Source: Paludibacteraceae bacterium (GTDB lineage Bacteria > Bacteroidota > Bacteroidia > Bacteroidales > Paludibacteraceae). From it: a DNA stretch of 33,674 bases. The DNA is taken from positions 1 to 33,674 of the forward strand of contig JAKSKX010000023.1 of the NCBI GenBank assembly GCA_024401535.1, read 5' to 3'. The translations under genes and the position numbers were made by a program. Of the stretch, positions 1 through 33,674 are shown piece by piece. The first letter of the stretch is position 1; each line of letters opens with the position of its first letter. The notes beneath the pieces were generated by a model that worked only from the letters and a program-made list of their open reading frames with translations, searched no databases and was not told the origin of the DNA.

Positions 1-2
1 AG

Positions 3-413
3 ATTATCAAGGCATATAACCAAGAGCAGAATCGCGCAACGATAGAAAAGACCTTTGAAGAACTGATGCATCTGTCTCAGTCGCTCAGTGATGAGGAGAA
101 ACGATATGTACGTGAAGGATTCAGAAGCGATGAAGAACTCTCGCTTTACGACCTGCTCTTGAAAGACAATCTGTCAAAACCGGAGATAAAGAAACTGAAG
201 GATGTAGCTATAGAATTGCTTGCCAAAATAAAAGGGCAGTTGGCAGGTATGGACCATCCTTTCGATAAGCCAACAACTCGTGCAACCCTTATTATTACCA
301 TTCGTAATGTTCTTTGGCAGGAACTTCCAGAGAGTTACAGCGAAGAAAGTATAAACTATTACCGCGACACCATCTACAACTATGTTAGCCAAAGATATGG
401 CGGTGTAGCATAA
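3..413 (+). CDS. hsdR: Type I restriction enzyme R subunit, C-terminal fragment (partial at window edge)
   Basis: The reading frame is open from base 3 and enters from outside the window, so only about the last 136 residues are seen. They are helical and charged and resemble the C-terminal helical domain (DUF3387 type) of HsdR, with a stretch like 'FRSDEELSLYDLLLKDN' matching the family's 'elgLseeElaFYDaL' region. In the family this domain docks the motor/nuclease subunit onto the HsdM2S methyltransferase core; the nuclease and helicase domains would lie upstream, outside the window. A methionine at base 66 is internal and not the start. No hsdM or hsdS follows within the window, so they would be upstream or elsewhere. 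The identification rests on the C-terminal domain only. Confidence 0.75.
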   Translation: MIKAYNQEQNRATIEKTFEELMHLSQSLSDEEKRYVREGFRSDEELSLYDLLLKDNLSKPEIKKLKDVAIELLAKIKGQLAGMDHPFDKPTTRATLIITIRNVLWQELPESYSEESINYYRDTIYNYVSQRYGGVA

Positions 414-5309: not shown

Positions 5310-6731
5310 ATGAAAAGACAATTTTTAACATTAGCTACAGCATCTCTTGCTACTCTTGCTTTTGCTCAGTCACATTTCTATGTACACAAGACAGACGGTA
5401 CATTGATTACATACGACATCAACGAGGTTGACAGTATCAGTTTCGATAAGGTTGTTCCCGACAGCAATAATTTGTCTGACAACAAACAGCAGTCCAAATC
5501 CGACAGCAACGAGCTTTATGTTGACCTTGGACTTCCTAGCGGTACACTTTGGGCAAAGATGAACGTCGGAGCTACTTCTCCGGAGCAGATTGGCGACTAT
5601 TTCTCTTGGGGAGAGACTTCACCCAAAGACAACTACAGCCGTAGCAACTACAAGTGGAATGGCTGGGATATAGACCAACTTATTGAAAACGGCATTTGCG
5701 GAAGCGACTCTACACTTGCTCCAGAGCATGACGCCGCCACTGTAAATATGGGCGAGGAATGGAGAATGCCCAACCTTCAGGAATGCATTGAGCTTCTTAA
5801 AGCATGCGCTTGGTCCGACACTACTATAGCAAACAATGACAGAGAGACACTGTTGTTCAAAGTCACAGGTCCAAACGGAAACTACATCCTTCTTCCAAGA
5901 ACCGGAGTAAACAACCAATGGGATGCAAGCGCCTATTACTGGACATCCGAAACAAGCAAGTTCTATGTAAGTAATCCAAACGACTGTTCTTACAGTATGT
6001 TTGCTCATAACTCAGGCTCGTTCGGCTATAACAGAAATCTTCACCAGAGACACACTCGTTATGACGGTGTTCCGGTTCGTGCCATAAGAAAGCCTATCAA
6101 GAAGGACGCAGACAATGAGCAATATGTTGACCTTGGTCTTCCAAGCGGTACAAAGTGGGCAAAGATGAATGTCGGAGCTACTTCTCCGGAGCAGATAGGT
6201 ACTTACTTCGCTTGGGGTGAGACAGCACCAAAAGACAACTACAGCCGTAGCAACTACAAGTGGGCAAGTACGGAGATTGACAAGCTTATCGAAAATGGTA
6301 TTTGCAAAACAGATGCATCTGTAGGCCCTCATTATCCACTGGCTGCACTAAGTCCGGAACATGACGCAGCGACTGTAAACATGGGCGAGGACTGGAGAAT
6401 GCCAACTGTTGTAGAATGCAACGAACTTCTTAAGAAATGCGCTTGGTCTGACACAACAATAGTCAACGAAGAGGGCCAGAGCATCCAAATCTACAAGGTT
6501 ACCGGTCTGAACGGAAACTACATTCTTCTTCCAAGAACAGGTCTTAACGGTTACCCAGGAAGTAGCACATACTACTGGAGTGCTACACCAAGCGCTCTAT
6601 GGTACAGCCAGCCTGGCGACTGCTCGTACAGTATGTTTGTACACTACATCTCTGATGACCCAACAAGCAGAAACACACACCAGAGACACACTCGCTATGA
6701 CGGGGCTCCGGTTCGTGCCGTAAGAAAGTAA
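5310..6731 (+). CDS. Secreted protein with two FISUMP domains
   Basis: 473 residues. The signal peptide ends at about residue 19 (LAFAQ). A short N-terminal module ('FYVHKTDGTLITYDINEVDSI') common in secreted Bacteroidales proteins is followed by two tandem FISUMP domains at about residues 68-260 and 270-473. Each begins YVDLGLPSGT and contains WGETxPKDNYSRSNYKW, a WRMP motif and an NGNYILLPRTG motif, and ends in VRAxRK. The domain is named for Fibrobacter succinogenes; its role is not known, and extracellular binding is only a guess. There is no type IX sorting domain on this protein, unlike its upstream partner. The two domains are nearly identical in DNA over their first 150 bases, pointing to a recent internal duplication. 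Confidence 0.8.
   Translation: MKRQFLTLATASLATLAFAQSHFYVHKTDGTLITYDINEVDSISFDKVVPDSNNLSDNKQQSKSDSNELYVDLGLPSGTLWAKMNVGATSPEQIGDYFSWGETSPKDNYSRSNYKWNGWDIDQLIENGICGSDSTLAPEHDAATVNMGEEWRMPNLQECIELLKACAWSDTTIANNDRETLLFKVTGPNGNYILLPRTGVNNQWDASAYYWTSETSKFYVSNPNDCSYSMFAHNSGSFGYNRNLHQRHTRYDGVPVRAIRKPIKKDADNEQYVDLGLPSGTKWAKMNVGATSPEQIGTYFAWGETAPKDNYSRSNYKWASTEIDKLIENGICKTDASVGPHYPLAALSPEHDAATVNMGEDWRMPTVVECNELLKKCAWSDTTIVNEEGQSIQIYKVTGLNGNYILLPRTGLNGYPGSSTYYWSATPSALWYSQPGDCSYSMFVHYISDDPTSRNTHQRHTRYDGAPVRAVRK
5515..6727 (+). repeat. Internal tandem duplication encoding the two FISUMP domains
   Basis: Copy one spans about 5515-6090 and copy two about 6118-6727. The best-conserved parts are the starts: exact blocks include one of 26 bases at about 5569 and 6172, and a 33-base block at about 5625 and 6232. 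Such blocks are long enough to recombine. Confidence 0.7.
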
Positions 6732-7585: not shown

Positions 7586-9199
7586 TTATTCAGATACGGG
7601 GCGAACTGTGCAGCCCTGATATTTATCGGAACTGTAAGTTACAATATTCAAGTCTGAAAATCTGGAAACATAAGCTGTTTTTTCGTCTTTCGCAGTAGAA
7701 CTCCAATAATAACCAGACCATCCTTTAGACAAAACATTTGCATTGTAATAATAACCAGATATAGGTATGAATATCCAATTGTCATTACCTTCCTGTCTGC
7801 TCTTAATTTTATACCCTTCGACGCCGTTTATTATCAAGGTTGAAAAGTCACAATTGTTGTACAACTCCTGATAGTCTTCTCGTGTAGGCATTCTCCAACT
7901 GCTACCCCATGTCTGCGTTGCCACATCATAGGTTGCTGCCAAATTACCTTCCGAGCTTACGAAACCATCATTCTCCTTATTGTAAGTCAAAGAGTTATCT
8001 TGGAAGTATTTTTCTTTTTTAGTTGTCTCTCCCCATGCGAAATAGTCTCCATCATCCTCAGGCTTTGAAGCACCGATGTTGCAAGTAGCCCATTTCAAAC
8101 CACTAGGCAAACCCAAATCCACGTAGCTGTGACCATCTATCTCGGGATTTTCAACTTTTCTGTATGTTGCATAAATAGACATTTTAGTCCAGACATACTT
8201 ATATGATTGGCTCCAACCTGCGAATTCATAGCCTTCAATAGCGGGCATATCAGGAGCAACGGCGTCCTCGCCTTCTATCACTAACTGTTTTTCTATGAGT
8301 ATGCTGTCCGGAGAATAGAAGCAAACTTCAAACCTTGGCTTTGATTTTATGTATTCTCCGGAAACGGGACGAACGCTAAATCCATTAAAACCTTGTGATG
8401 ACGTTAATGTACATAAAGAAACAGGAGCGATTGAAATTGTAGTTGTCATTTCCCATTTCCAGTTATAGGAACCATCAGTATTGGAAACACGGTATCTGCC
8501 ATACTCACCCATGCTGTCATGATAGCTTGCATTATACCAACCGGCAGCAGGCAGGAAAATCCAATTATCATTATATTGACTTACAAATTTGCAGCCAGCC
8601 ACACCATTCAGTGTATCCCACACAACTTCGCAGTTGTCAATAAGCTCTTGAAACTCCTCATATCTGGGCATTCTCCAGTTTGGTCCCCAATTATAAGTGG
8701 CAGCGTCATATTGTGAATTAAGTACATTCTGCGAGTTTATGATTCCTTTTGACACTAAATCGGACCAAGACCAGTCTTCCAAGAAATATTGATTGTAATG
8801 ATAGTTTTTCTTTGGAGTAGTCTCTCCCCAAGAAAAGAAATCTCCATAACTTTCTGTATATGAAGTACCCACGTTGCAAGTAGCCCATTTCAAACCACTA
8901 GGCAAACCCAAATCCACGTAGTCATAGCCGTCAACTTGACCGCTCACTGACATTATGTAGTCATTATGAAACACCTCCTTGACATTCTCGACCTCGAACT
9001 TGTCTGTGGCATTGTCCGAAGTGAATACATTCATGTATCTGGTGGAAGTTGATTGGTCAGTTTCGTAGTTTACTTTTTCAACATTTTCAAGGTCATAATA
9101 GGTAACCTTGCCATCTGTTGTCTTGACGTTCATATATTCAACTGCACTTGCAGTTAAAGCAAGCGTAGGCATTAGCATTGATAGAATTATCTTCTTCAT
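7586..9199 (-). CDS. Secreted protein with two FISUMP domains and an InlB-type repeat between them
   Basis: 537 residues. The signal peptide ends at about residue 19 (LTASA). A short N-terminal module ('YMNVKTTDGKVTYYDLENVEKVNYE') appears twice. The first FISUMP domain is at about 92-280 (begins YVDLGLPSGLKWATCNVG), a Listeria-Bacteroides repeat (InlB B-repeat) at about 288-350 ('EGYEFAGWS'), and the second FISUMP domain at about 360-537. Both domains carry WRMP motifs and end in VRPVS. It is a paralogue of the plus-strand protein at 5310-6731 but with a more divergent sequence and an inserted B-repeat. Function is unknown; a surface-exposed or periplasmic binding role is an inference. It follows the short secreted gene by 10 bases. 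Confidence 0.8.
   Translation of the reverse strand: MKKIILSMLMPTLALTASAVEYMNVKTTDGKVTYYDLENVEKVNYETDQSTSTRYMNVFTSDNATDKFEVENVKEVFHNDYIMSVSGQVDGYDYVDLGLPSGLKWATCNVGTSYTESYGDFFSWGETTPKKNYHYNQYFLEDWSWSDLVSKGIINSQNVLNSQYDAATYNWGPNWRMPRYEEFQELIDNCEVVWDTLNGVAGCKFVSQYNDNWIFLPAAGWYNASYHDSMGEYGRYRVSNTDGSYNWKWEMTTTISIAPVSLCTLTSSQGFNGFSVRPVSGEYIKSKPRFEVCFYSPDSILIEKQLVIEGEDAVAPDMPAIEGYEFAGWSQSYKYVWTKMSIYATYRKVENPEIDGHSYVDLGLPSGLKWATCNIGASKPEDDGDYFAWGETTKKEKYFQDNSLTYNKENDGFVSSEGNLAATYDVATQTWGSSWRMPTREDYQELYNNCDFSTLIINGVEGYKIKSRQEGNDNWIFIPISGYYYNANVLSKGWSGYYWSSTAKDEKTAYVSRFSDLNIVTYSSDKYQGCTVRPVSE
8078..8126 (-). repeat. 49-bp exact direct repeat, copy 1
   Basis: Identical to 8873-8921 over 49 bases; encodes the start of the second FISUMP domain. 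The exact identity of otherwise diverged domains suggests recent duplication or gene conversion. Confidence 0.85.
8873..8921 (-). repeat. 49-bp exact direct repeat, copy 2
   Basis: Identical to 8078-8126; encodes the start of the first FISUMP domain. Recombination between the copies would delete about 795 bp in frame (265 codons) and leave a one-domain protein. Confidence 0.85.
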
Positions 9200-9209
9200 C
9201 TTGAGTCAG

Positions 9210-9677
9210 TTATTTACGAATTAGCTTGATTGTTTTCTCCCCTATAATCAACAGATACACACCCTTTTGATTAGGCAAAACCATAGTCGCGAAACCGTTC
9301 TCGTCAGCACGTGTTTCTCTAATAACAACACCGCAAGCTGTTGCCAGAACAACACCCTCATTTGCATTGGCATGATATACTTCAACTATTTCGTCATTAA
9401 CAGTTACTATGCCAATTTCGTCTGCAGGCAGAGAAAATGAGGAAGAAGAATTGACCTCGGTAAAGTAGTAATTCTTAACTCTTTGGAGTTCGTAACTTGT
9501 ATATTCGTCACCATCTACAACAAGATTTCCATAACTATAGGTAATCTCTGGATTTGAATCTAGCAAGAAATTGTATTTCTCGCCATCCTTCATCTCAATA
9601 GTCATGCAATTCTTTTCGGCATAGAGTCCATAGGAAATGCATAACATGAAAAGCGCAGCAAAAATTTTCTTTGTCAT
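9210..9677 (-). CDS. Short secreted protein, likely with type IX-like C-terminal domain
   Basis: 155 residues with a signal peptide of about 20 residues (ends GLYAE). The C-terminal 65 residues ('IVTVNDEIVEVYHANANEGVV', 'KGVYLLIIGEKTIKLIRK') have the strand pattern and basic end of a type IX sorting domain, although the usual PNP motif is missing. The middle is not recognised. It has the same size, layout and position as the 4826-5305 gene, leading a two-gene cassette with a double-FISUMP protein 10 bases downstream. It is less certain than its counterpart that the sorting domain is functional. Confidence 0.65.
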   Translation of the reverse strand: MTKKIFAALFMLCISYGLYAEKNCMTIEMKDGEKYNFLLDSNPEITYSYGNLVVDGDEYTSYELQRVKNYYFTEVNSSSSFSLPADEIGIVTVNDEIVEVYHANANEGVVLATACGVVIRETRADENGFATMVLPNQKGVYLLIIGEKTIKLIRK

Positions 9678-9711
9678 GTCAAATGTTAAAATATATATTC
9701 AAAATACTTGG

Positions 9712-9741
9712 CAAAAATACTAAACTTAAGCCACGAGGCAA
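9712..9741 (-). promoter_or_regulatory. Promoter of the second FISUMP cassette
   Basis: Minus-strand TATTTTTG (9719-9712) and TTG (9741-9739), separated by 19 bases, about 35 bases before the ATG at 9677. This is a good match to the Bacteroidetes consensus. Confidence 0.7.
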
Positions 9742-10422
9742 AATTCTAATAGTCAAAAGGAAAAGTCAATTCTTAAAAATTCTTAAACGATCATGGAACG
9801 ATTTTCAAACAATCCCCAAATGTATATCGGCTTCCCGAAAACAATAATGTAAAAATGAAATTTGTAAACCCTTGTCCAATATAAAACTTAGGGCGAAGAA
9901 CATTTGATTTCGGAAACGCAAGCCTAAAGCACAATCTTAATGTAAAAATTCGTTTCTGACATGATATTCATCTAATTCAAATTTTCAATTTTCAATAAAT
10001 GACAAAGAATAAACAGGTCTTATTTCCCTTTTGAGTGCAGGGCGAACATCTTTCTACTATTTGTTTCGCATAAATTTTAGCTAAAAAGTCATATATTATT
10101 TACACAAGAATAAACAGACACTACCCCAATACACTCATAATTCTACCTTCTGAAGCGACCTGCGAGGTATATACTATGTATATACCCAGCATAGAACGTT
10201 TTTATTTTTTTTGTGAGGCGCCGCCGAGCTAATAACTATTATACCCTTATATATAATAATTATTATAAACTTATAATATGAGGTGTAACATCATCAAATG
10301 ATTTGTCTGTATGATGTTACTATTAAAATAGAATCAAGAGTATTAAATAAATATGGGACGGAGAATTTGAGTTTGTATCTAGTTGTTTTTCAAATATATA
10401 CGTTAAGAAATCGAGCGCTAAA
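9742..10422. other. AT-rich non-coding region preceding the iteron field
   Basis: About 680 bases with no credible gene in either direction. It holds the 21-bp palindrome at 10166-10186, a short GC-rich island (GGCGCCGCCG, 10218-10227) and a 14-bp AT palindrome (ATAATAATTATTAT, 10253-10266) in a strongly AT-rich patch, all plausible parts of a replication origin. Confidence 0.5.
10166..10186. repeat. 21-bp perfect palindrome upstream of the iterons
   Basis: Arms GGTATATAC and GTATATACC with TAT between them. It is a likely protein-binding site, though which protein binds is not known. Confidence 0.6.
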
Positions 10423-11461
10423 TGTCGAAAGTATGGTATTTATATGTCGAATCTATGGTAATATTCGGCTATTTAACTGTCAATTCTATGGTATTTATGT
10501 GTCGAGTTTATGGTAAAATATTGAAATACAGTCTAATTTTGCGCTAAATGTCGATTCTATGGTAAATTTTAGGTATTTGTTAATCTTATAGGCAATAAAT
10601 AACTACTATTATATAAATGATTGATATACAATACTTTTACACTTTAAGTGTCGAATCTATGGTATCTAATTTTCAAGTTTATGGTAATTTTGAGCATATA
10701 TTATAACGCCTTGAAAACAGCCTAACTGTCGAGTTTATGGTAAAAATAAGGCTATATTGGGGCTTTATCTGTCAATTTTATGGTAAAATTTGGCTTTAAC
10801 TGTCGAGTTTATGGTAATTGAATAATAATTAGGTGCATTTTTTAGCAGTTTCTATAGCCAGATCGTTTCTTTCTTTTTACTGAACTGTCGAGTTTATGGT
10901 AAGATTTTAAAGGTACAGAGTCTTTCGTTAAATAATAATATGCAGATATTCAGCAAGATATGTTTTCAACTGTCAAGTTTATGGTAAAATATAGTCTGAA
11001 ATCTGTAAAATCTAGCTAATTGTCAATTCTATGGTAAGATTTAGCACTAAAAAATCGAATCTATGGTAATAAATGGCTTTAATTGTCGAGTTTATGGTAA
11101 ATTTAGGCCTGATTTTGCTCTTTTGCCTTATATAAAACCGACATTTCGCATCGTTTTAGTGCTTATTGTCGAGTCTATGGTAATTTTTTCTGGTCCATTT
11201 CCAGGCATGATTATAATCTCGACATTTGGCTTGAATAAAGGCGAAATGTCGAATTTATGGTAAATTTCCTAACCCGTTTTTGGTCGGGCAAGTTCTGAAA
11301 TTTTGCGCTAGATAGGCTTTACTTTGCTTGAAGTCGCTTTCGCAATTTTCACTTTTTGCTTGAAAATCTCAACTTTTGTAACTTGCAGATAAATAGAGAG
11401 ATATATAAATAATGTCGAAATTATGGTAAAAAAATCCCTATTAAGTGTCGAAACTATGGTA
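10423..11461 (+). repeat. Iteron field of a replication origin (19 direct copies)
   Basis: Nineteen copies of a 16-bp element, core TGTCGAnTyTATGGTA, all in the same direction. They start at 10423, 10445, 10478, 10500, 10549, 10649, 10671, 10727, 10770, 10801, 10886, 10971, 11021, 11053, 11084, 11167, 11247, 11413 and 11446. The copies at 10671 and 11053 have a changed first half. ATGGTA is invariant. Spacing is irregular, though many gaps (22, 31-33, 43 and 85) are near whole helical turns. Iterons of this kind bind Rep_3-type initiators, and the initiator gene follows directly. The number is far above the 3-7 usual for small iteron plasmids. The intervening sequence is AT-rich and non-coding. 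Confidence 0.9.
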
Positions 11462-11470
11462 TTTTTTATT

Positions 11471-11478
11471 TACTTTTG
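11471..11478 (+). promoter_or_regulatory. -7 box of the rep promoter, overlapped by the last iteron
   Basis: TACTTTTG matches TAnnTTTG; the start codon is 30 bases downstream. The -33 region falls at about 11448-11452, inside the iteron at 11446-11461, so an initiator bound there would block polymerase. Confidence 0.7.
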
Positions 11479-11507
11479 CAGAGTAATTTACAAGTGATGA
11501 TGTATCA

Positions 11508-12920
11508 ATGGAGAACTTATTAAGCCAACAAGACAATAAACCTGTCGTTATTCAGTCGTGGAAATTAACAAAGGTAAAATATAAATTCAATAAAACTGAG
11601 AAGAATATATTTCTAAAAATCATAGAAATATCTCAGAAGCATCTTAACAAGGAGAACCTTGGTAAGAAGTGTACCTTTGAAATGCTGCAGAAGTTTGGCA
11701 AGGAGTATCCCCAGATTACATTCCCGATAAAGGACCTTTTGAAGAACTCGAACAACTACAAGTATATTTGCGAAAGTTTGGACAGCCTGGGTAGCAAATC
11801 CTTTGGTATGCCGGCAAATAAAGACTGGGACTTTCAAAAGTGCTTTTTGTTCTCCAAGGTGTCTGCCAGCGAAAACAAGGGAATAGCTTTGGTCGAGCTG
11901 ACTCCCGCATTTTGGGAAGCGTTCCTGAATACGGAAACATACAAGAGTATTGACCCGCACCTTGAATACAAGTTTGACAGTGTATATACTATGCGTATGT
12001 ATGAGCTGTTGGTCGGAAACAAAAGAGAAATCACTTACAAGATTGCAAATCTGATTGATATGTTCTGCTTGGAGAAATACACTGCAAGTCAGTTCATTAC
12101 ATACGTCATTCAGATTGCTCAAAAAGAGATGAAAGAAATGGACGAGTGCCCTTTCTACTTCGAATACGTGGTAACTAAGGAGGGAAGGAAGTTCGACAAG
12201 CTTACGTTTATTCTTGTCCATAAAAATGCGACTGACAGTATTCTTGGCGATGTAGTGCTTAGCCAGAATATCGAGTCCGGAGTGAAGTTCATGTTCGGAA
12301 TCGAGGAGCTTTCAAAGTCTCTAACCGATAAACTTATCAAGCTTCAGGTTTTGATTGGCGAGAAGCCCCTTGAAAAGAAGTTGAAGGATGTATTCATGAA
12401 GACGAGCGACATGCGTGAGGAGGGAACTCTGAATGCAGATCCCGTGGCGTATTTGTCCGTTTGCCTTGATAACCTGTACAATGTCTCTGTTTCAAACAAG
12501 GAAGAGCAGCAGGCAAGAAAGCAGGAAGCACAAGATATAGAAGTTATAGACACTTTTGACACATTCGTCTCTGCAGTTCCAGAACTTTCTGCACAGGATA
12601 TGTGTCATAATTCTATTCAACAAGTAAGACAGGATTCGGAATATATGCAGAAAATAGCTGCATACCACCAAGTTACAGTTCAGATGATAGAGTCTGTACT
12701 TGACCGAATACTTAGTAACGCTGACCTAAATGCTTCATGGTCTAATGACGATTCTGTAGAGAAGGTCAAGAAGCATTTGATGAATGCCAAGACTATTATT
12801 GATGTAATTAAGAACTCTGGTCAGCCCCAATTTAAATCTCCAATGACTGTTTCATCTCGTTTGCAGATGCAACGAAGAAATATTGACGTTCCAAACAAAG
12901 AAGACTACAATGAGTGGTAA
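11508..12920 (+). CDS. Replication initiator protein, Rep_3 (RepB) family
   Basis: 470 residues. Residues of about 15-240 have the twin winged-helix layout of Rep_3 initiators: 'NKPVVIQSWKLTKVKYKFNKTEKNIF' at the start and the family signature 'YTMRMYELLVGNKREITYKIANLIDMF' in the middle. The C-terminal 200 residues are less conserved and helical. Such proteins bind iterons, open the origin and recruit the helicase, and as dimers repress their own promoter. The iteron field lies immediately upstream. The downstream helicase-loader gene overlaps the last 11 bases. It is longer than the 250-330 residues of typical plasmid RepB/RepE proteins, so the extra C-terminal region may have a replicon-specific role. 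Confidence 0.85.
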   Translation: MENLLSQQDNKPVVIQSWKLTKVKYKFNKTEKNIFLKIIEISQKHLNKENLGKKCTFEMLQKFGKEYPQITFPIKDLLKNSNNYKYICESLDSLGSKSFGMPANKDWDFQKCFLFSKVSASENKGIALVELTPAFWEAFLNTETYKSIDPHLEYKFDSVYTMRMYELLVGNKREITYKIANLIDMFCLEKYTASQFITYVIQIAQKEMKEMDECPFYFEYVVTKEGRKFDKLTFILVHKNATDSILGDVVLSQNIESGVKFMFGIEELSKSLTDKLIKLQVLIGEKPLEKKLKDVFMKTSDMREEGTLNADPVAYLSVCLDNLYNVSVSNKEEQQARKQEAQDIEVIDTFDTFVSAVPELSAQDMCHNSIQQVRQDSEYMQKIAAYHQVTVQMIESVLDRILSNADLNASWSNDDSVEKVKKHLMNAKTIIDVIKNSGQPQFKSPMTVSSRLQMQRRNIDVPNKEDYNEW

Positions 12921-13713
12921 AATCCAATTGACTAATGAAATCCTAGATGAATACAAGAATATCCAGAAAATATTAAGAGACGGAGGCGAAATAACTAACG
13001 GGCAGAGAGCTACTTTGGAAATTGTGAAGGAGTGCAATACTCCGCATAATTTCTATGACACTAAGTCCGGTAAGCTAGTGTGGGATTCTAGGTTAAGTGC
13101 AAAACATATCGAATGCTCTTTCAAGAATGCATTTAAGAGTCACATAGAAAACTCTGGTAACATATTCAAGGTTACCCAGGAGGCTAAGGAAAACTGCGAG
13201 AGAATTAGCGAATGGCTATATTATCAGCAGAAGCCTTTCCTTATTCTCCAGGGCTCTTTTGGAAATGGCAAGACTTCAAGCGCCAAGTCCATTATGAATG
13301 TGATTAGAAAAAGCAACTTCAAATCAAAGAGCTGGGAGGGAGATTTAAACGACAAAGATTTGTCTGTTGCCGAATATGATGCCGCTACCCTATTCGAAGA
13401 CCTTGCTTTTGGTAGAGTTGACAAGGAGAGGATCTATACAATTCCGTTTCTTAGTATTGATGACCTTGGAGTTGAGCCAGCCTCGTATAATCATTTTGGA
13501 ACTGTGCTTACTCCGATTCATGACCTTCTGAGGGCTCGTTACGAAAGAAGGTTGATTACCGTAATTACTACAAATCTTACTGCAAAGTTGATTCGAGAGT
13601 CTTATGGTGAAAGAATATTCGACAGATTGAAGGAGGCTTCCGAAAGAATACTTTTTATTCAAGATTCATTTAGAGGCTGTGAGGATAATTCCTTTATGAA
13701 GATGGCTAAGTAA
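12910..13713 (+). CDS. DnaC/IstB-like AAA+ ATPase, probable helicase loader
   Basis: 267 residues from the ATG at 12910, which overlaps the rep stop codon; an alternative TTG nine codons upstream lies inside rep and is less likely. Walker A is GSFGNGKTS (Lys121), Walker B is FLSIDDLG (Asp184-Asp185), sensor 1 is VITTNL and a possible arginine finger is YGERIFDRL. This is the AAA+ core of DnaC/DnaI and of the IstB transposition helper. No IS21-type transposase lies nearby, and the gene is translationally coupled to rep, so helicase loading at this origin is the better reading. The N-terminal 100 residues would be the helicase-binding part and are not recognised. Confidence 0.8.
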   Translation: MSGKIQLTNEILDEYKNIQKILRDGGEITNGQRATLEIVKECNTPHNFYDTKSGKLVWDSRLSAKHIECSFKNAFKSHIENSGNIFKVTQEAKENCERISEWLYYQQKPFLILQGSFGNGKTSSAKSIMNVIRKSNFKSKSWEGDLNDKDLSVAEYDAATLFEDLAFGRVDKERIYTIPFLSIDDLGVEPASYNHFGTVLTPIHDLLRARYERRLITVITTNLTAKLIRESYGERIFDRLKEASERILFIQDSFRGCEDNSFMKMAK

Positions 13714-13942
13714 AGTTTCTTACTTTATTATGTCTTTTATAATCAATAATATAATATTATAAATATGTAATAAAATAATACTATAATATTTATTTATTGC
13801 AAGCATTGTTAAGTTGTTATATTATTTTGATTTCTTTTGCAACAAGCGTTAACCGGCTTTCATTGGTTACTCTTATGTGTCTTTAGTTTGTATGTAATAT
13901 TGCAAGTATATAATATCATAATATTTCTTTAGTTATTAGCAT

Positions 13943-13980
13943 AAGGCATCCTGAAAGATCAGAAACAGGATGCCTTTGTT
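13943..13980 (+). terminator. Hairpin terminator of the rep-loader operon
   Basis: A stem of AAGGCATCCTG with CAGGATGCCTT around a 12-base loop, followed by TTGTTTGT. It is 230 bases past the loader stop and could work in both directions. Confidence 0.7.
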
Positions 13981-14231
13981 TGTATTATAGCTCTCATTTC
14001 AATAATAAAAAAAACGTTTGTTTTATTGTTCAGTCTTATATTTTGTACTACCCTCCCCTTCAGATTTTGATTTTGTCTATTCTATGATATTAGGTATTTT
14101 GTCTAAGTCGGTTTGCCGTTTTTTTAAGTTTCTCGTATTCTCAAATAGCCTTTTTATATAGATTTACCTATATTTTTCATTTTTCTATAATAATATAATG
14201 ATTATTTGTTTCTGTTTTTAGATTTATTAAT

Positions 14232-14239
14232 TATCTTTG
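14232..14239 (+). promoter_or_regulatory. -7 box of the parA promoter
   Basis: TATCTTTG matches TAnnTTTG; the nearest upstream TTG (14206-14208) is 23 bases away, slightly long. The leader of about 80 bases is filled with AT palindromes that could be a ParA operator. Confidence 0.5.
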
Positions 14240-14322
14240 CGTCAGTATTATAATATTGTAATAATATAATTCTATAATACAGAAATAAATATAATATTAT
14301 AAGATAGAAATAATTATTATAT

Positions 14323-15075
14323 ATGACCAAGATTATTACGTTCGCCAACCATAAAGGTGGAGTTGGAAAAACAACGTCAGCCGTAAGTATTGGCGCTGGA
14401 TTTGCTAAAAAAGGCAAGAAAGTATTGTTGATTGACCTTGATGCTCAGGCTAACCTTACTGCGTCTTTGTCCTCAGTAAACTTTGATGAGACTGACGAAA
14501 GAACGGTTTATGAAGCCATGCTTGAGCGAAAGGACATCCCAGTCTATAATGTTTCGGAAAACATGGACATCGTGCCTGCTTCTTTGATGCTTTCTAACGC
14601 CGATATGCAGCTAATCAATGCCATCAGCAGGGAAACCATACTCAAGGACCTAATTGCGCCTGTAAAGAGCAAATATGACTATATTTTGATTGACTGTCCC
14701 CCATCTCTTGGAATCATGACAATGAACGCGTTCGTTGCCTCCACTGATATTATCATTCCTTTGACAATGGAAACTCTTCCTGTAAAGGGATTGATTATGA
14801 TGCAGAATTTCCTTGATACAATCAAGAATACTGTAAATCCAGGATTGAACTTGATGGGAATTCTAATCACTAATTACGAAGGACGTAAGATCAACAAGGC
14901 CTACGAGGCAAGTGTGAACCAGCAGTACGGAAACCTTGTTTTCAAAACAAAGATTCGTAAGAACATCACGGTTACAGAGGCTCCAGCTGCTCACTTGAGT
15001 TTGTTTGATTATGATCCTTCTTGTAATGCGTCTAGTGATTATAGTATGCTAGTTGCTGAAATATCAGCATTATAA
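14323..15075 (+). CDS. parA: ParA-family partition ATPase
   Basis: 250 residues with the deviant Walker A motif KGGVGKTT (Lys11, Lys16), the switch region 'LLIDLDAQANLTASL' and Walker B 'DYILIDCPPSLG'. It is the short ParA form (type Ib/Soj-like) without an N-terminal DNA-binding domain, so operator binding would be done by its partner. ParA uses ATP-dependent binding to the nucleoid to separate replicon copies. The partner gene begins 40 bases downstream. The pair directly follows the replication genes, which is the usual order on low-copy replicons. Confidence 0.9.
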   Translation: MTKIITFANHKGGVGKTTSAVSIGAGFAKKGKKVLLIDLDAQANLTASLSSVNFDETDERTVYEAMLERKDIPVYNVSENMDIVPASLMLSNADMQLINAISRETILKDLIAPVKSKYDYILIDCPPSLGIMTMNAFVASTDIIIPLTMETLPVKGLIMMQNFLDTIKNTVNPGLNLMGILITNYEGRKINKAYEASVNQQYGNLVFKTKIRKNITVTEAPAAHLSLFDYDPSCNASSDYSMLVAEISAL

Positions 15076-15115
15076 TATCATAAATATATAATAACCTAAT
15101 AATATAACATTTATT

Positions 15116-15445
15116 ATGGCTAAGAAAGATTATGGTGCTTTGGTTGCTAATGTAATGCAGCAGACGGTTGCAAATAATGTGTCAACTCCAGCAGTTACTA
15201 AGCCTGAGCCGAAGTTAGTTGAGCAGCCAGTAGTAAAGCCTGCCTCAAAGAAGGACAAGGTTTTCACTGCTATAATTGATGAGGAGCTTCTTGAGAAGAT
15301 GAGATATATTGCTAAGTCGAACAACCTTTCATTCAAGGCGGTTATCGAGGCTTCCTTTAAGAAAAGTATATCTTCATTCGAGGAAAAGAATGGAACAATA
15401 GTTGTCGCTAAAAAGGAGTCGGGTAGGGCAGAGGACTTGTTCTAA
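15116..15445 (+). CDS. Small ribbon-helix-helix protein, probable ParA partner (centromere-binding)
   Basis: 109 residues. The N-terminal half is rich in Val, Pro, Lys and Gln and probably flexible ('TKPEPKLVEQPVVKPASKK'). Residues of about 48-92 read as a ribbon-helix-helix fold: strand 'KVFTAIIDEEL', helix 'LEKMRYIAKSNN', helix 'SFKAVIEASFKKSI'. A small basic DNA-binding protein directly after a short ParA is the standard arrangement for type Ib partition, where the flexible N-terminus stimulates the ATPase. No canonical ParB (KorB domain) is present, so this is inferred from fold and position. Downstream lie the 133-bp repeats that could be its binding site. Confidence 0.65.
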   Translation: MAKKDYGALVANVMQQTVANNVSTPAVTKPEPKLVEQPVVKPASKKDKVFTAIIDEELLEKMRYIAKSNNLSFKAVIEASFKKSISSFEEKNGTIVVAKKESGRAEDLF

Positions 15446-15500
15446 CGCATCTATAATATCTATTATATATAACATTATAATAGATTAAGTATTATTATAT

Positions 15501-15530
15501 GGCAGAGAATACATTTCTCTGCCTTTTTTT
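15501..15530 (+). terminator. Terminator of the parA operon, repeat copy 1
   Basis: A 9-bp-plus stem (GGCAGAGAA with TTCTCTGCC) and a short loop are followed by seven T residues. Confidence 0.85.
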
Positions 15531-15633
15531 ATCCTTACTTACTCTTGCCTTTTGAATGAGAGTTTCTACATATTGCCAATTATTTATAATATCTATTATA
15601 TATAACATTATAATAGATTAAGTATTATTATAT

Positions 15634-15662
15634 GGCAGAGAATACATTTCTCTGCCTTTTTT
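15634..15662 (+). terminator. Terminator, repeat copy 2
   Basis: The same GGCAGAGAA hairpin and T-run, duplicated with the 133-bp unit. Confidence 0.8.
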
Positions 15663-15742
15663 ATCCTTTCTTACTCTTGCCTTTTGAATGAGACTTTCTG
15701 CATATTTGCCATTTATTTATAATATCTATTATATATAACAAT

Positions 15743-16602
15743 ATAACATCATAAGAATTGTTATGATGTTATTTTTATTTTGCTTTCTTATATGACTTGC
15801 AAAGTTTACTTTGTATTCAGATTTGTGTTATATTATAGGAATTTATATACGTGTTGTCTAATCAAGCTTGCTATTCATACGCTCACTCTCAGAACTCATG
15901 CTGAAGAGGAAGAACAGGGTGTTCTGCCCTTAACATTCCTCGTATGGACAACAAGTGTATAATTGCCATATTATATCGTTTGGCGATTCTGTGATTAGGA
16001 AGGGTAGTGCCTCATTATTTTCTAGTCAGTTTGATAACCATAATTATTCTTAGTTATAATATTATAATAATATAATTACCTAATATATCTTATATTTTTT
16101 TTCGTACCTTTTGAATTATCTAATGTGGAGCTGAAGTCCTGATATCTATTCTATATTTTTTGTTGTCTACTATATTTTCGCTCGTATGTGAAGTCAACTC
16201 TCTCTAAGCTTTGTCTAACCTGGTTGATTTGTATATAATGATATAATAATACTTATAGCTAATATATAAAGTATATAATATTATAATTATTATTTTAATG
16301 TTATATTATTAGTTTCTTTACGTCTCTTAATCTTCTCTGCTTGACCAATTTACACATTATGTGATACGTTTAATTTACTCAAATATTCGCAGATTTTACT
16401 TATTTGCTTGCACATCTAGAAAAATCTCTATAACTTGCCGCTGATTATTGGTAGGTTTTGTTGGGTAATTTCTAAAAATGACTTGTTTGGTATTAAGTTT
16501 GTTATGGAAAAATCCAATTATCAAACTGATAATCAAAATATATCATATTAACACTATGAATTATTATTAACAAAGTGTTTAATACTAATTTTAACATTGG
16601 AA
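15743..16602. other. Long AT-rich intergenic region
   Basis: About 860 bases with no gene that I can support. A 60-codon open frame at 15780-15962 has no family resemblance. Runs of alternating AT palindromes recur at about 16054-16073 and 16260-16312. A weak TAnnTTTG box (TAAGTTTG, 16494-16501) without a spaced TTG might serve the next gene. Confidence 0.45.
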
Positions 16603-19548
16603 ATGGCAGATGGGTTTAAAACGATAAAGGAATTTATCGATTATATAAGCGAAACATACACTACAAGAGCCGCCTACAAATTCATTGTAGATGAAACGGT
16701 AGAAAGCAGAAGTTACAATCAACTGAAATCTGATTCATATTCGTTGGCATCGTTTCTCGTCAACAAAGGATACAGCCACAATCACATTGCAATTCTTGGA
16801 GAAACAAGTTATGAGTGGATTGTGTCTTTTTTTGCTGTTGTGATTAGTGGCAACGTCGTGATTCCAATCGACAGAATGCTTCCAGAAAAGGAGATGCTTT
16901 TCCTATTTGGCAAAGGTGACGTGGATTGCATTCTTCACAGTGAGGATTTCAACCGAGTTGCAGATCATGGCAAGGAATCGGTAGAGAGCGTCAAGGAGAC
17001 AATCTCTTTTTCTTCAGACGTTTTCAAGCAGGGTATTAAGACTTCTCACGTCGAACTGCCTCAAACCAATCCCGACGATATGGTCGAGATTCTTTTCACA
17101 TCCGGAACCACAGGCACAAGCAAGGGCGTGATGCTTTCCCAGACAAATATAGTCCATAATTTGAAGGACATCATCAGAATGGACTACGCTTCCAATTTGA
17201 AAAGCCACATAGTCGTGTTGAGTGTGTTGCCTATTCATCACACATTCGAGCTTACTGTGGACAATTTGGGAGTGTTAGGCTGTGGTGCAACAGTCTGCAT
17301 CAACGACAAACTTGAGAATATTGTCAAGAACTTGTGTCTATTCAAGCCGAATATGATTCTTATTGTACCTGCCATTGCAGAGGCTTTCTACAAGAAAATC
17401 CAGGAGGCAATCAAAGACCCAGCCACACAGAAGAAGCTTAATCTGGGACGCAGGCTTGTCAAGATGTCAAAGGCTTTGGGTATGGATGCCAGAAGAAAGG
17501 TGTTCAAGTCGATGTTGGAAAAATTCGGAGGAGAACTAACAAACATCGTAGTGGGAGGTGCTGCGCTTCGTCCGGAGATTTGCAAGTGCTTCGACGAGTT
17601 CGGAATCAATGTTTTCCAAGGCTACGGCTTGACAGAGTGCGCACCTTTGGTGTCAGCCAACTATCCAGGTATGGACAGAGTCGGATCGGTCGGTCAGGCT
17701 GTCAAGTATATGGATGTCAAGATTGAGAATGACGAGATTTTGACCAAAGGTCCAGGCCTTATGCTCGGCTACTACAAAAGCCAGGAGCAGACAGACGAGG
17801 TAATCAAAGACGGATGGTTCCATACGGGTGATTTGGGCTATATTGACAAGGATGGCTACATCTTCATCACTGGCCGTTGCAAGAGCTTGATTATTCTTGA
17901 CAACGGAAAGAACATCTATCCGGAGGAGTTGGAAGAGAAACTTCTTCATATTGATGGGGTGAAAGATGCCTTTGTATATGGAGACAAAGGGCGAATATGC
18001 GCATTGATTCTACCGTTCGAGACTACTAATATTGAGAAGAAGAGGGCAATAGAGAATGAGGTTAAGAAGATTAACGAGATTCTCCCTACCTACAAGAAAA
18101 TCACTCTTGTAACCTTCTCAAACAAGGAGTTTCCAAAGACAACTACATTGAAAATCAAGCGACACGAGCTGCTAAAGACTATTCAGAATCAGTCCGCCGA
18201 CGACGAGGTGAAATATGTTGCACCAAACACACCTACCGAGAAGCAGGTGGCAGAGGCTTTCGAGCAGATTCTGGCGCAGAAGGTCGGCTTGCACGACGAT
18301 TTCTTTGATATGGGTGGAGATTCTTTGAGTGCTTTCGAGTTGGCTGCAAACCTAGGAATTACAGCGCAGGACATCTATGAATCGCCAACTGTGGAGCAGC
18401 TTGCAAAATTCATTGACGAAAGTAGCGACACCGTTCAGGAGGAGAATAATGTGGATGTAAACGCACTTTTGGCGGAGGATGCCAATGTGGTGGTAGAGAA
18501 TCCTCACAAGTGCATCTTCATCACTGGAGCAACTGGTTACTTGGGCGCACACGTGATGCGTGAGTTCTTGAAAAGGAATCTGAATGTCATAGCGCTTGTC
18601 AGGGACGAGGCTCGTTTGAAGAAGACATTGGAGCGTTACTTCCCTAAGGAGTACGCATCATTCAAATATAGGGTAGTGAAGGGAAATATCGAGATGGAGC
18701 ATTTCGGTATTGACGATGACGCATACGCCGCACTAACAAAAGAGGTGGATACAGTTGTGCATATTGCAGCCAACGTTCACCACGCCGGAAACTATGCTGA
18801 GTTCGAGCGAACAAACGTGGGCGGAACAAGGAACGCTATCCAGCTCAGCAAGGATGCCAATGCTGTGCTTCACCACACATCTACGGCTTCGGTTTGCGGT
18901 GTGGGAACAGTTCCGATTCCGCAGACTGACAAGCCGTTCGACGAGTTTGTCTTGAATATCGGTCAGAAGTATGTTCAGAACGTCTATATCCACTCTAAAT
19001 ACAAAGCCGAGGAGGCTGTGTTGCTTGAAAGAGCCAACGGGTTGAGGGCAAACATCTATCGTATAGGAAACTTGACGTGGAGAAAGTCTGACGGTCTGTT
19101 CCAGAAGAATGCCGAAGAGAACGGATTTATCGGAAGGTCAAGAGGTCTATTCAAGGCAAGACTCTATAGTCCGGAGTTGGCAGAGTACCCGATGGATTTC
19201 ACCGCTGTTGACGAGTGTGCGGAGGCATACGCAAAGCTTGTGCTACACAACAGAGCCAACAACGTCTATCAGCTGTATAACCCGAACGCCTACACTATTC
19301 AGGAACTTGCGAGCAAGATGTTCATGAGATTCAAGTGTATTCCTAAGGATGAGTTTGCAACCTTCTTGAAAGAGCATATCATGGACAAGGACATTGCAAT
19401 CTTGTCGTTCTACAGCTCGATTGCTTCTAAGTCAAGAAACGTGCCATTGAACAATGACTTCACAACCAGGACATTGAAGGATTTAGGTTTCAAATGGCAG
19501 AAGATAGGCTTCTTCTACTTGAGATATTTCAGAAGATTCATGAAATAA
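16603..19548 (+). CDS. Carboxylic-acid-reductase-like protein: adenylation, carrier and thioester-reductase domains
   Basis: 981 residues from the ATG at 16603 (an upstream in-frame TTG two codons earlier is less likely). The adenylation domain (about 1-520) carries LFTSGTTGTSKG (Ser167-Gly175), GYGLTECAP and GDLGYIDKDGYIFITGR. The carrier domain (about 540-615) has DMGGDSLS with the phosphopantetheine serine at Ser574. The reductase domain (about 635-981) is of the SDR-type thioester-reductase family: FITGATGYLG for NADPH and YIHSK (Tyr795, Lys799) as catalytic pair. By family logic the enzyme activates a carboxylic acid as acyl-AMP, loads it on the carrier and releases it by reduction to aldehyde. 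It is shorter than actinobacterial Car (about 1170). A phosphopantetheinyl transferase is needed and is not in the window. The substrate is unknown. Confidence 0.85.
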   Translation: MADGFKTIKEFIDYISETYTTRAAYKFIVDETVESRSYNQLKSDSYSLASFLVNKGYSHNHIAILGETSYEWIVSFFAVVISGNVVIPIDRMLPEKEMLFLFGKGDVDCILHSEDFNRVADHGKESVESVKETISFSSDVFKQGIKTSHVELPQTNPDDMVEILFTSGTTGTSKGVMLSQTNIVHNLKDIIRMDYASNLKSHIVVLSVLPIHHTFELTVDNLGVLGCGATVCINDKLENIVKNLCLFKPNMILIVPAIAEAFYKKIQEAIKDPATQKKLNLGRRLVKMSKALGMDARRKVFKSMLEKFGGELTNIVVGGAALRPEICKCFDEFGINVFQGYGLTECAPLVSANYPGMDRVGSVGQAVKYMDVKIENDEILTKGPGLMLGYYKSQEQTDEVIKDGWFHTGDLGYIDKDGYIFITGRCKSLIILDNGKNIYPEELEEKLLHIDGVKDAFVYGDKGRICALILPFETTNIEKKRAIENEVKKINEILPTYKKITLVTFSNKEFPKTTTLKIKRHELLKTIQNQSADDEVKYVAPNTPTEKQVAEAFEQILAQKVGLHDDFFDMGGDSLSAFELAANLGITAQDIYESPTVEQLAKFIDESSDTVQEENNVDVNALLAEDANVVVENPHKCIFITGATGYLGAHVMREFLKRNLNVIALVRDEARLKKTLERYFPKEYASFKYRVVKGNIEMEHFGIDDDAYAALTKEVDTVVHIAANVHHAGNYAEFERTNVGGTRNAIQLSKDANAVLHHTSTASVCGVGTVPIPQTDKPFDEFVLNIGQKYVQNVYIHSKYKAEEAVLLERANGLRANIYRIGNLTWRKSDGLFQKNAEENGFIGRSRGLFKARLYSPELAEYPMDFTAVDECAEAYAKLVLHNRANNVYQLYNPNAYTIQELASKMFMRFKCIPKDEFATFLKEHIMDKDIAILSFYSSIASKSRNVPLNNDFTTRTLKDLGFKWQKIGFFYLRYFRRFMK

Positions 19549-20922: not shown

Positions 20923-21858
20923 TTAGTTTTTCCCATTCCATTTCTTCAAAATCTGTGCGGCAATGCTTCCGGAGAAGTTGTGCCAGACAGAAAATATGGC
21001 ACCCGGCACAGCCGCCAGCGGGAACATTGCGAAGTGCGTTGTTGCCAGAGAAGTGGCGAGTCCGGAATTCTGCATGCCAACCTCTATGCTTATTGCCGTG
21101 CGTTTCTCCGGAGACAGTCCTATTACCTTGCCAGCCAAATAGCCAAGAGACAGACCAAGTATATTGTGCAGTACTACAGCCACAGCTACAATCAGGCTGC
21201 ATCCGAGGATACTCTGGACATTGTGGGAAACGATAATTCCTATGATAGAGGCAACAACGAGCGTTGAAAACATTGGCAGATAGGGGGTTATCTTCTGTAT
21301 AAATCCATTGAAAAAGTGGCTTGTCACTAGTCCCGCAACTATTGGCAGAATCACTACCTGCACAATGCTGATGAACATTTTTACAATATCCACAGGTACA
21401 GATTCTCCGGCGAGAAGCAGCACAAGAGCCGGTGTCACAAACGGAGCCAGCAGGGTTGAAACTCCCGTCATTGCGACACTTAGTGCGACATCACCCTTGG
21501 CTATATAGCAAATCACGTTGCTTGCAGTTCCTCCGGGGCAGCAGCCCACGAGTATCACTCCCAATGCAAGCTCCGTAGGAAGGTTGAGCAAATGGCAGAT
21601 AGTCCACGCGGCACACGGCATTATGATGAACTGTGCGAGCTCGCCCACGACAATCTCTTTGGGATGCATCAGCACTGGCTTGAAGTCGGACGGCTTCAGT
21701 GTAAGTCCCATTCCGAACATCACTGCGCCGAGCATAGGGTTTATGGTCGCCATTCCTATCCATAGAAAAGATTGGGGGGCAAAGAATGCGATTGCTGTTA
21801 CTGCCACAACAACTATTGTAATGTTTGAGGCTATCCAAGTTGCTATTTTGTTGCTCAT
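20923..21858 (-). CDS. Bile acid:sodium symporter (BASS) family transporter
   Basis: 311 residues with about ten membrane helices. Family motifs are visible: MFGMGLTL near residue 48, CCPGGTASNV at about 105-114 and EVGMQNSGLA at about 255, which form the sodium-binding crossover region, plus AAVPGAIFSVWHN near the end. BASS members move bile acids, pantoate, or other organic anions with sodium across the inner membrane; family membership alone does not give the substrate. The gene is divergent from the DUF2147-ferredoxin-OYE-SDR operon and upstream of the iron alcohol dehydrogenase. The context of reductases that act on hydrophobic enones makes a bile-acid- or steroid-like substrate worth considering, as an inference only. 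Confidence 0.88.
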   Translation of the reverse strand: MSNKIATWIASNITIVVVAVTAIAFFAPQSFLWIGMATINPMLGAVMFGMGLTLKPSDFKPVLMHPKEIVVGELAQFIIMPCAAWTICHLLNLPTELALGVILVGCCPGGTASNVICYIAKGDVALSVAMTGVSTLLAPFVTPALVLLLAGESVPVDIVKMFISIVQVVILPIVAGLVTSHFFNGFIQKITPYLPMFSTLVVASIIGIIVSHNVQSILGCSLIVAVAVVLHNILGLSLGYLAGKVIGLSPEKRTAISIEVGMQNSGLATSLATTHFAMFPLAAVPGAIFSVWHNFSGSIAAQILKKWNGKN

Positions 21859-27301: not shown

Positions 27302-27698
27302 CATAATGGTTTTTCTAATTTTTTTTTGCTTTTCCCCTATACTTGAATAGGCATACCAATATGTTTAAGCATGGTGTTGCGGATTCGGTGGCTCTTTTCT
27401 TTTTTAATCATAGACCTCTGACAGAAGAATCAACAACTTGCATTTCGATAACCGAGAAACTTAAAAGCGACTGTACAAACATTCATTCAAGCCTGAGGCT
27501 GACAGGCAACGAACAGACACATGTATTTTCTTTCTCCATAATTCTTGGCAGAGAACAATCAAACAACTTATACTCATATAGTTACCTTTGCATAGAAATT
27601 TGCATTTGAGCATTCCCTTTTCGCTTTCATCGGCGATAAAATGAGAGATGCCGAGGGCGATGGAAGGTGTATGGGATTGGGAAAACATGAAATGAGAT
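27302..27698. other. Intergenic, no gene supported
   Basis: About 400 bases between the OhrR operon and the tracrRNA. An 88-codon plus-strand frame begins only at a non-ATG codon and shows no family resemblance; it is not accepted. A TACCTTTG box at 27583-27590 (plus) has no -33 TTG. I see nothing else in it. Confidence 0.4.
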
Positions 27699-27783
27699 AA
27701 AAAAAAGCCACCGATGAGGTCGATGGCAGCCTAATGTTTTCACAACGGAATAATCCTTATTGTGAATTGCTCAAAAAATCCTA
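27699..27783 (-). ncRNA. tracrRNA of the type II-C CRISPR-Cas system
   Basis: Read on the minus strand, the 5' part is an anti-repeat: bases 27784-27760 are perfectly complementary to positions 2-26 of the CRISPR repeat (25 pairs, plus a G-U at position 1). It continues with a short GGA-UUAU-UCC hairpin (27756-27747) and a linker GUUGUGAAAACAUU. It ends in a terminator hairpin (27727-27720 with 27714-27707, 5-base loop, 8 bp with one G-U) followed by eight U residues. It is driven by the promoter at 27787-27816. The RNA would be about 85 nucleotides. Confidence 0.9.
27707..27727 (-). terminator. Terminator hairpin of the tracrRNA
   Basis: Stem GCCATCGA with TCGGTGGC (one G-U pair), loop CCTCA, then eight T residues on the minus strand. 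Confidence 0.9.
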
Positions 27784-27813
27784 TTGCAAAGTTAAATACT
27801 TTTATTATATTTG
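27784..27813 (+). promoter_or_regulatory. Promoter of the cas operon
   Basis: TTG at 27784-27786, 19-base spacer, TATATTTG at 27806-27813. The mRNA would start near 27819, giving a leader of about 20 bases before the cas9 ATG. Confidence 0.8.
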
Positions 27814-33575: not shown

Positions 33576-33627
33576 TTTTCTAAACATCCTTGCAACTATT
33601 TGTTTTTCTGCAATATACAAGCAATAA

Positions 33628-33674
33628 GTTGTTATTGCGTAAGCAAAGATAGGATTTTTTGAGCAATTCACAAC
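33628..33674 (-). CRISPR. First visible repeat of the CRISPR array (47 bp, truncated by window edge)
   Basis: A 47-bp unit that, read on the minus strand, starts GTTGTGAATTGCTC and ends GCAATAACAAC. Both ends show the GTTGT/ACAAC symmetry of type II-C repeats, and the length fits the 46-48 bp known from Bacteroidetes. Positions 2-26 match the tracrRNA anti-repeat exactly. The window ends on its last base, so no spacer can be seen. The complementarity sets the crRNA direction as minus, toward cas2, so this is probably the last repeat in transcription order. Confidence 0.88.
33644..33673 (-). promoter_or_regulatory. Promoter inside the CRISPR repeat
   Basis: On the minus strand, TTG at repeat positions 2-4 (33673-33671), 19-base spacer and TATCTTTG at positions 24-31 (33651-33644). 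This is a complete Bacteroidetes promoter within the repeat; transcription would start near position 37 and run into the adjacent spacer. Confidence 0.7.

Follow-up and report, generated by a model that had tools for sequence, protein, structure and literature searches.

A plasmid-type replication and partition module with 19 iterons and its own DnaC-like helicase loader, a candidate chromid origin in a Paludibacteraceae gut bacterium

The DNA analysed here ("the window", 33,674 bp) comprises all of contig C16 in a fragmented metagenome-assembled genome (MAG) from a Paludibacteraceae bacterium, which consists of 69 contigs and 2.96 Mb. At 10.4-16.6 kb it carries an iteron field, a gene for a Rep_3 initiator, a gene for a DnaC-like helicase loader and a parAB-type partition locus. 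Judged from its sequence, this module is a plasmid-type replicator and partition system that is intact and probably working. Our preferred reading, held with little more than balanced confidence, is that in this gut bacterium, which is close to Candidatus Scybalocola, it is the replicator of a chromid-like secondary replicon no smaller than 77 kb. The features of the origin region are the following:

10231..10290, no strand assigned: candidate unwinding element, the most A+T-rich 60 bp (83%) of 9700-11510 by sliding A+T content
10423..11461, plus strand: 19 same-direction iterons, consensus TGTCRANTYTATGGTA, found with a 16-mer allowing at most 3 mismatches
11132..11149, minus strand: inverted half-iteron, candidate Rep operator (pair I2 with the iteron at 11241-11258, 89% complementary)
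11213..11230, minus strand: second inverted half-iteron, candidate Rep-dimer operator (pair I4, 83% complementary)
11471..11478, plus strand: -7-like box TAnnTTTG, immediately downstream of the last iteron; may be the rep promoter, repressed by Rep

Of the 21 sites that the 16-mer search returned for the window, 19 belong to the field; 100 shuffles averaged 1.68 sites and never exceeded 6. Ten positions of the consensus, TATGGTA included, are invariant in 19/19 copies. An earlier note on this DNA had described 19 irregularly spaced, same-direction iterons over 1.04 kb, and this description held: the spacing varies from 22 to 166 bp, and helical phasing of the 19 copies was not significant (p ~0.36). 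A Rep_3 iteron replicon is expected to carry direct repeats of some 16-22 bp next to rep, and the window has 19 of them. The note had also called the field unusually large for an iteron origin. One counting script gave 19 repeats in the window against 4-5 in three shuffles, and 2-7 repeats upstream of rep in each of ten Bacteroidota Rep_3 plasmids (shuffles 1-5), in agreement with that claim; the ten were hand-picked from 40 listed of 80 matching records, with three shuffles each, and three of them have less than 2 kb upstream of rep within the stretch.

A scan of named genomes (at least 585 stretches) detected at least seven relatives of the window Rep. With the same script, six relatives gave 9, 10, 21, 21, 27 and 28 iterons, and on these counts a large iteron field is a habit of the Rep clade, not of the window locus alone. 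Shuffles of L013 gave 6-12 repeats, more than those of the other relatives, and L022, whose Rep is 25% identical, was left out of the six (5 repeats against 3-4 in shuffles). The iteron sequences of the relatives fall into four kinds, namely those of L016, of L011, of L012 and L013, and of L014 and L015, the last two having repeats in both orientations.

The second half-iteron, at 11213-11230, is 10 nt from the iteron that starts at 11241, an arrangement in which the inverted half-iterons could serve as Rep operators. RepE/pi-type iteron plasmids likewise have inverted half-iterons before the initiator gene. TAnnTTTG, which we take to be the -7-box consensus, occurs 41 times in the window and is hence weak evidence of a promoter at 11471-11478. 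The role of 10231-10290 as a candidate unwinding element is suggested by its A+T content.

Downstream of the iterons lie the initiator and loader genes:

11508..12920, plus strand: Rep_3 initiator, 470 aa, with winged-helix domains WH1 (residues 14-168) and WH2 (179-234; Pfam PF01051, PF21205)
12591..12917, plus strand: C-terminal helical extension of Rep, seen by alignment and common only to the window and L016
12910..13713, plus strand: DnaC-like AAA+ helicase loader, 267 aa (PHROG 50, 3277, 26922)

Both winged-helix domains of Rep_3 initiators were recognized above the Pfam cut-off (Rep3_N 2.3e-10, Rep3_C 1.8e-5), and a profile of seven Reps matched RepE-type structures weakly (E 0.002-0.007; chains 2Z9O 0.004 and 1REP 0.007). 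In the alignment of these seven Reps, the C-terminal extension is found in the two with a loader gene downstream and not in the other five, and the two copies, from the window and L016, are 53% identical. The predicted model of the window Rep places the extension in a separate helix group (residues 362-435; mean pLDDT 65.9, pTM 0.34). The co-occurrence in two loci suggests that the extension may dock the loader. We also considered whether the extension could be DUF7833, a domain found beside a Segatella homologue of the loader. The two look alike by eye, but the extension has no Pfam match, and the proteins upstream of three loader homologues aligned poorly, so the idea was dropped.

The loader gene overlaps rep by 11 bp, and its product matches the DnaC-like helicase loaders of PHROG 50 at 1.5e-28. 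It has no Pfam match, its NCBIfam match is below the cut-off (PRK08116, 1.6e-14), and no PDB entry was matched at 0.01; since no curated cut-off or solved homologue was matched, we name it DnaC-like and do not file it as DnaC. The segments GNGKTSSA, IDDLGVEP and GERIFDRLKE, presumably the Walker A, Walker B and arginine-finger regions, are conserved in L016. In L017, L018 and L019 the place of the loader is taken by a DnaB helicase gene, which starts 9-22 bp after rep (DnaB_C 7e-96 to 8e-102), while the sequence of L020 ends shortly after rep and L021 carries a different gene there. A helicase or loader gene next to rep in five of the seven aligned Reps suggests that helicase function often travels with the Rep clade. 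A 317-kb Segatella plasmid was tried as a further case of the same module and rejected, as it lacks Rep_3 and its upstream iterons do not exceed those of shuffles.

The partition region follows:

13750..13761, no strand: TATAATATTATA palindrome, candidate centromere site 1 (this and the other three sites by exact copy search)
14290..14301, no strand: TATAATATTATA, candidate centromere site 2, 21 bp before parA
14323..15075, plus strand: ParA ATPase, 250 aa, without an N-terminal DNA-binding domain (Pfam AAA_31 over residues 2-176)
15116..15445, plus strand: Arc-like protein, 109 aa, putative ParB (weak match, 6.9e-5, to the Arc-like repressors of PHROG 582)
16055..16066, no strand: TATAATATTATA, candidate centromere site 3
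16274..16285, no strand: TATAATATTATA, candidate centromere site 4

The order rep, overlapping DnaC-like gene, partition genes had been read correctly in the earlier note and is now backed by the Pfam Rep_3 and PHROG 50 matches and by ParA with its Arc-like partner. A ParA without the N-terminal DNA-binding domain, followed 40 bp downstream by the gene for a small, putatively DNA-binding partner, conforms to a small-ParA (type Ib) system. A search of 72,556 plasmid records with the Arc-like protein gave nothing at 1e-3. Around parAB, TATAATATTATA occurs in four exact copies in the window and in four in L016 (chance means 0.00 and 0.01), and we propose it as the candidate centromere. Among 236 loci it was matched in six, which are L016 and five copies of the window; no other independent locus had it. 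Several further features adjoin the partition genes. At 15449-15714, downstream of the ParB-like gene, a 133-bp unit is repeated in tandem in two almost identical copies, both containing the hairpin GGCAGAGAATACATTTCTCTGCC. The genome has a further copy of a stretch near 15832-15967 (C57, 99%), and a 983-aa protein with domains of the AMP-binding, carrier and thioester-reductase types is encoded at 16597-19548.

L016, a 6,511-bp contig, is the only other complete module found. Its rep, loader, ParA and Arc-like protein are 55, 61, 90 and 69% identical to those of the window, and its parAB is inverted. What the analysis adds to the earlier note is a complete module with a candidate centromere that is conserved in a second locus.

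From these parts a mode of action can be proposed. Bound to the iterons as a monomer, Rep would open the A+T-rich DNA near 10231-10290, where the C-terminal extension of Rep and the DnaC-like loader, the latter perhaps docked on the former, would bring DnaB to the opened strand. The inverted half-iterons near 11213-11258, together with the last iteron beside the -7-like box, may let Rep repress itself. Surplus iterons would titrate and pair Rep and so hold the copy number near one, and ParA and the Arc-like protein would segregate the copies via the TATAATATTATA sites.

The extent of the replicon was approached through contig ends, beginning with the left edge of the window:

1..413, plus strand: 3' end of hsdR, of which bases 1-55 are the last 55 bases of contig C11

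Exact 55-base end overlaps form 31 pairs among 138 contig ends; contigs C63-C66, which read as N, and three pairs overlapping by 30, 33 and 48 bases were left out of this count. The C11 end and the C16 start are one such pair, and neither has another partner. The hsdR frame (1047 aa) is intact across the junction; Pfam assigns its C11 part to HSDR_N and related families, and the gene is placed after hsdM and hsdS. Because of the shared 55 bases and the spanning frame, C11 and C16 are joined in a segment of at least 77 kb. This makes it very improbable that the window is a binning artefact, i.e., a contig from another organism, as might be suspected in a fragmented MAG and with the related L016 sitting in a MAG labelled Clostridium. 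Matching GC, a reported contamination of 0.26% and the sole detected copies of two genus-wide genes, described below, also speak against an artefact. In the same restriction operon, which is of type I, hsdS and hsdR are separated by a Fic-domain gene that also matches Bro-N weakly (C11:39954-40847; L043).

The two ends of the window do not overlap each other, so that no circle is formed by end overlap. Bases 33649-33673, at its right end, match an anti-repeat-like stretch at 27760-27784, and the contig thus breaks at a presumed CRISPR array. The CRISPR-like repeat of this end was absent, within 4 mismatches, from the other stretches scanned, contig ends included. The cas genes cas9, cas1 and cas2 (cas2 confirmed by Pfam) occupy 27841-33519, and the contig ends in a single repeat. 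A locus on another contig (G000 C3; L046) carries 92-93% copies of the CRISPR-side end of the window (33591-33667, at 28184-28259) and of a segment preceding cas9 (27396-27692, at 30126-30422); in the 10 kb around it there was no match to the window cas genes, and it may be a cas-less twin or the scar of the window's CRISPR locus.

The earlier note had further proposed to check whether the contig is separate from the one with dnaA and rRNA and whether cumulative GC skew has a minimum at 10-11.5 kb. The dnaA gene does lie on another contig, C23, which means little in a MAG of 69 contigs, and C16 is itself joined to C11. The cumulative GC-skew minimum is at 10270, and the V around it has a depth of 350, compared with at most 204 in 17 other 19-20-kb stretches. 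As proof of an origin we nevertheless rejected it: third-position skew is small on both sides of the module (-0.046 on the left, 0.003 on the right), so the V mostly reflects gene orientation, and the minimum is not the global one of the joined 77 kb.

Third-position top-strand skew is at most 0.06 in 4/4 successive intervals over C11 and C16 and at least 0.085 in 25/32 other stretches of the genome. Flat skew over 77 kb is compatible both with a replicon separate from the chromosome arms and with a location at a chromosome terminus. We consider it unlikely, though to be taken seriously, that the module is a plasmid integrated into the main chromosome, probably close to the terminus, a region of weak strand skew. 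Seven of the 32 other stretches are low in skew as well. Contigs traced from strongly skewed ones toward C14 and C6 also lose their skew: in the series C69-C53-C14 and C5-C6, whose members are connected through 55-base overlaps, it falls toward zero (C53 itself unmeasured), as near a terminus, and C11-C16 could lie there. Nor is flat skew a mark of the Rep clade, since among rep-bearing stretches of relatives L012 (0.085) and L015 (0.105) are skewed and L013 (0.004) is flat. The phage-like genes and transposase on C11 resemble a variable terminus region, and in congeners the orthologues of the module's flanking genes sit on contigs that are skewed and chromosome-like. However, the iterons, rep, loader, parAB and palindromes look intact and not decaying, and two genes of the joined segment bear directly on the question:

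20923..21858, minus strand: SBF-family transporter, in all 9 genus genomes, sole copy detected in this genome
C11:27049-27393: gene for a 115-aa protein that Pfam does not match, present once in each of 9/9 genus genomes

The transporter was matched in 8/8 congeners and has elsewhere in its own genome just a 52-bp weak match. In 3/3 congeners checked it lies in strongly skewed sequence (G003 C2 0.116, G001 C24 0.141, G006 C28 0.152), which is not terminus-like and argues against integration near a terminus. Genes near the congeners' transporter have their matches in this genome split over C16, C6 and C40. The only copy of the 115-aa gene detected in the genome is the one on C11, and a linkage to rep recurs in L016, at whose edge a 61-aa piece, 93% identical to the 115-aa protein, lies 1.3 kb from rep; this too speaks against an integrated plasmid. 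The gene data fit chromosomal genes moving to a second replicon; chromosome rearrangement together with plasmid integration would leave much the same picture.

We judged the chromid-like reading by the definition excerpted from PMC12456017. Plasmid-type replication and partition are represented by intact iterons, Rep_3, loader and ParA. The GC content of the joined segment is 42.3% against 42.0%, and its dinucleotide distance (x1000) is 23 for the 77 kb, 38 for C16 and 13 for C11, within the 11-91 of 31 other 19-20-kb stretches. Candidates for core genes that other species keep on the chromosome are the two genus-wide genes detected only here, neither of which is a classical essential gene, in a MAG that is 91.5% complete. 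Low copy number and independence from the chromosome stand outside these points; we infer them. The earlier proposal of a chromid-like origin is therefore upheld as regards the complete plasmid-type module, the chromosome-like GC and the two genus-wide genes, and is left in doubt by the scarcity of Rep_3 in the genus and by the unclosed replicon.

Several further observations weigh against a chromid. The C11 start and the C16 end have no overlap partner among the 138 contig ends, so the replicon is not closed. No tRNA was detected on C11 or C16, Rfam gave no match in C16, and no classical essential gene was noted on C11-C16. With the MAG incomplete, second copies of the two genus-wide genes could be missing. 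The origin module is unlike the rest in composition (GC 33.8%, dinucleotide distance 86.5), and the link between Rep extension and loader is based on two loci. A DnaA-like box, within one mismatch of TTATCCACA (presumably the DnaA-box consensus, uncalibrated for this host), was not found near the iterons; the single such site in 9500-16700 is at 13680, inside the loader gene. DnaA boxes are usual, not universal, at Rep_3 iteron origins, and their absence near the field would fit an origin that relies on its own loader. Chromids are usually genus-wide, whereas any Rep_3 gene was found in only 2/9 genus genomes, and the nearest congener rep (G005) lies on an 8,879-bp contig that, with a relaxase and HipA, resembles an ordinary plasmid.

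The last two points would equally suit an ordinary large, low-copy, dispensable plasmid with captured chromosomal genes, a reading we regard as improbable. Related reps do occur on plasmid-like contigs, among them L017 with relaxase and HipA, and the rep regions of L020 and L021 are 92-98% identical across genera; restriction-modification, CRISPR-Cas and phage genes are common plasmid cargo. Against such a plasmid speak the sole detected copies of two genus-wide genes and a composition of the joined segment equal to that of the chromosome, and no relaxase was found among the 44 C11/C16 proteins given to Pfam (of 54 in the gene list). For L020 and L021, Rep is 92.5% and neighbouring genes are up to 98% identical between two genera, which suggests recent transfer of the element.

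The relatives of the window Rep also bear on the host. The matches listed include Candidatus Scybalocola fimicaballi, Candidatus Physcocola equi and further Bacteroidales MAGs, part of them from the faeces of horses, besides L016 and a distant relative in Labilibaculum; no Prevotella second chromosome was among them. G005, the congener named above, is Candidatus Scybalocola fimicaballi, and an excerpt of PMC8957277 places Candidatus Scybalocola in the Paludibacteraceae. The host is therefore a Paludibacteraceae gut bacterium close to Candidatus Scybalocola and not Prevotella, as the earlier note had supposed. Across the wider family, the Rep search gave matches in 6/358 genomes, the window's own included. 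No Rep relative was found in viral contigs (412 candidate stretches), and window positions 1-25000 had no nucleotide match in plasmids.

Two other groups of genes were seen on the joined segment. C11:588-17010 (L065) encodes a phage-like primase, tape measure and glucosaminidase and an integrase-core transposase. Lcl_C-like proteins, with matches around or below the Pfam cut-off, are encoded at 5310-6731, 7586-9199 and C11:33894-36377, and short stretches similar to them are dispersed in many copies across the genus.

Comparison with known systems was made, for the Prevotella second chromosomes, by description and not by sequence, and these differ from the window in host family. As excerpted from PMC4755523, the second chromosome of P. 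intermedia OMA14 carries a Rep_3 gene and lacks a clear transition in GC skew, and its authors report no iterons or plasmid-maintenance genes near the Rep_3 gene and call the origin unknown. The window shares the Rep_3 gene and the flat skew and differs in having iterons and maintenance genes beside Rep_3. The excerpted text of PMC12456017 describes a P. fusca chromid that bears Cas9 and Cas1 of a type II-C system; the window likewise has cas9, cas1 and cas2. With RepE/pi-type iteron plasmids (F, R6K, pPS10, RK2) the window shares a WH1-WH2 initiator and direct repeats, and it differs from them in its 19 iterons (against 2-7 in the review PMC4980987), its own loader, the C-terminal extension of Rep and the lack of a detected DnaA box. 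Small Bacteroidota Rep_3 plasmids such as pBACSA02 and pRRI2 have Rep_3 proteins at 27-34% identity among 40 listed of 80, and pBACSA02 also has a ParA 43% identical to that of the window; they differ in their 2-7 repeats. In the ten plasmid regions of this kind no neighbour was annotated as loader or helicase, several neighbours being hypothetical proteins.

Replicons that supply helicase functions of their own are known elsewhere. In the lambda O/P module the initiator binds iterons and the helicase loader gene lies directly downstream; the window has Rep_3 instead of O, a DnaC-like AAA+ protein instead of P, and a linkage to parAB. IncQ RSF1010 combines an iteron initiator with a replicon-encoded helicase (RepC/RepA). 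L017-L019 likewise combine initiator and helicase, but of the bacterial DnaB family, whereas the window has a loader and no helicase. Our literature search, made in one library of papers, found nothing linking Bacteroidales with chromid origins or multipartite genomes, Paludibacteraceae with iteron plasmids, or Bacteroidetes iterons with dnaB.

Taken further, these observations lead to a tentative proposal, which we hold to be possible rather than probable: a Rep_3 clade of gut Bacteroidales with huge iteron fields brings along either DnaB or a DnaC-like loader matched by a docking domain on Rep, and one of its branches has become a chromid origin with a palindromic centromere. If true, that branch would show what a Bacteroidales second-chromosome origin looks like. 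The window locus unites Rep_3, iterons and maintenance genes in one 6-kb module; the last two are the parts that the P. intermedia authors did not find near their Rep_3 gene. That a helicase gene can stand in for the loader gene next to this kind of Rep suggests a route by which an iteron origin may escape the helicase-loading machinery of its host.

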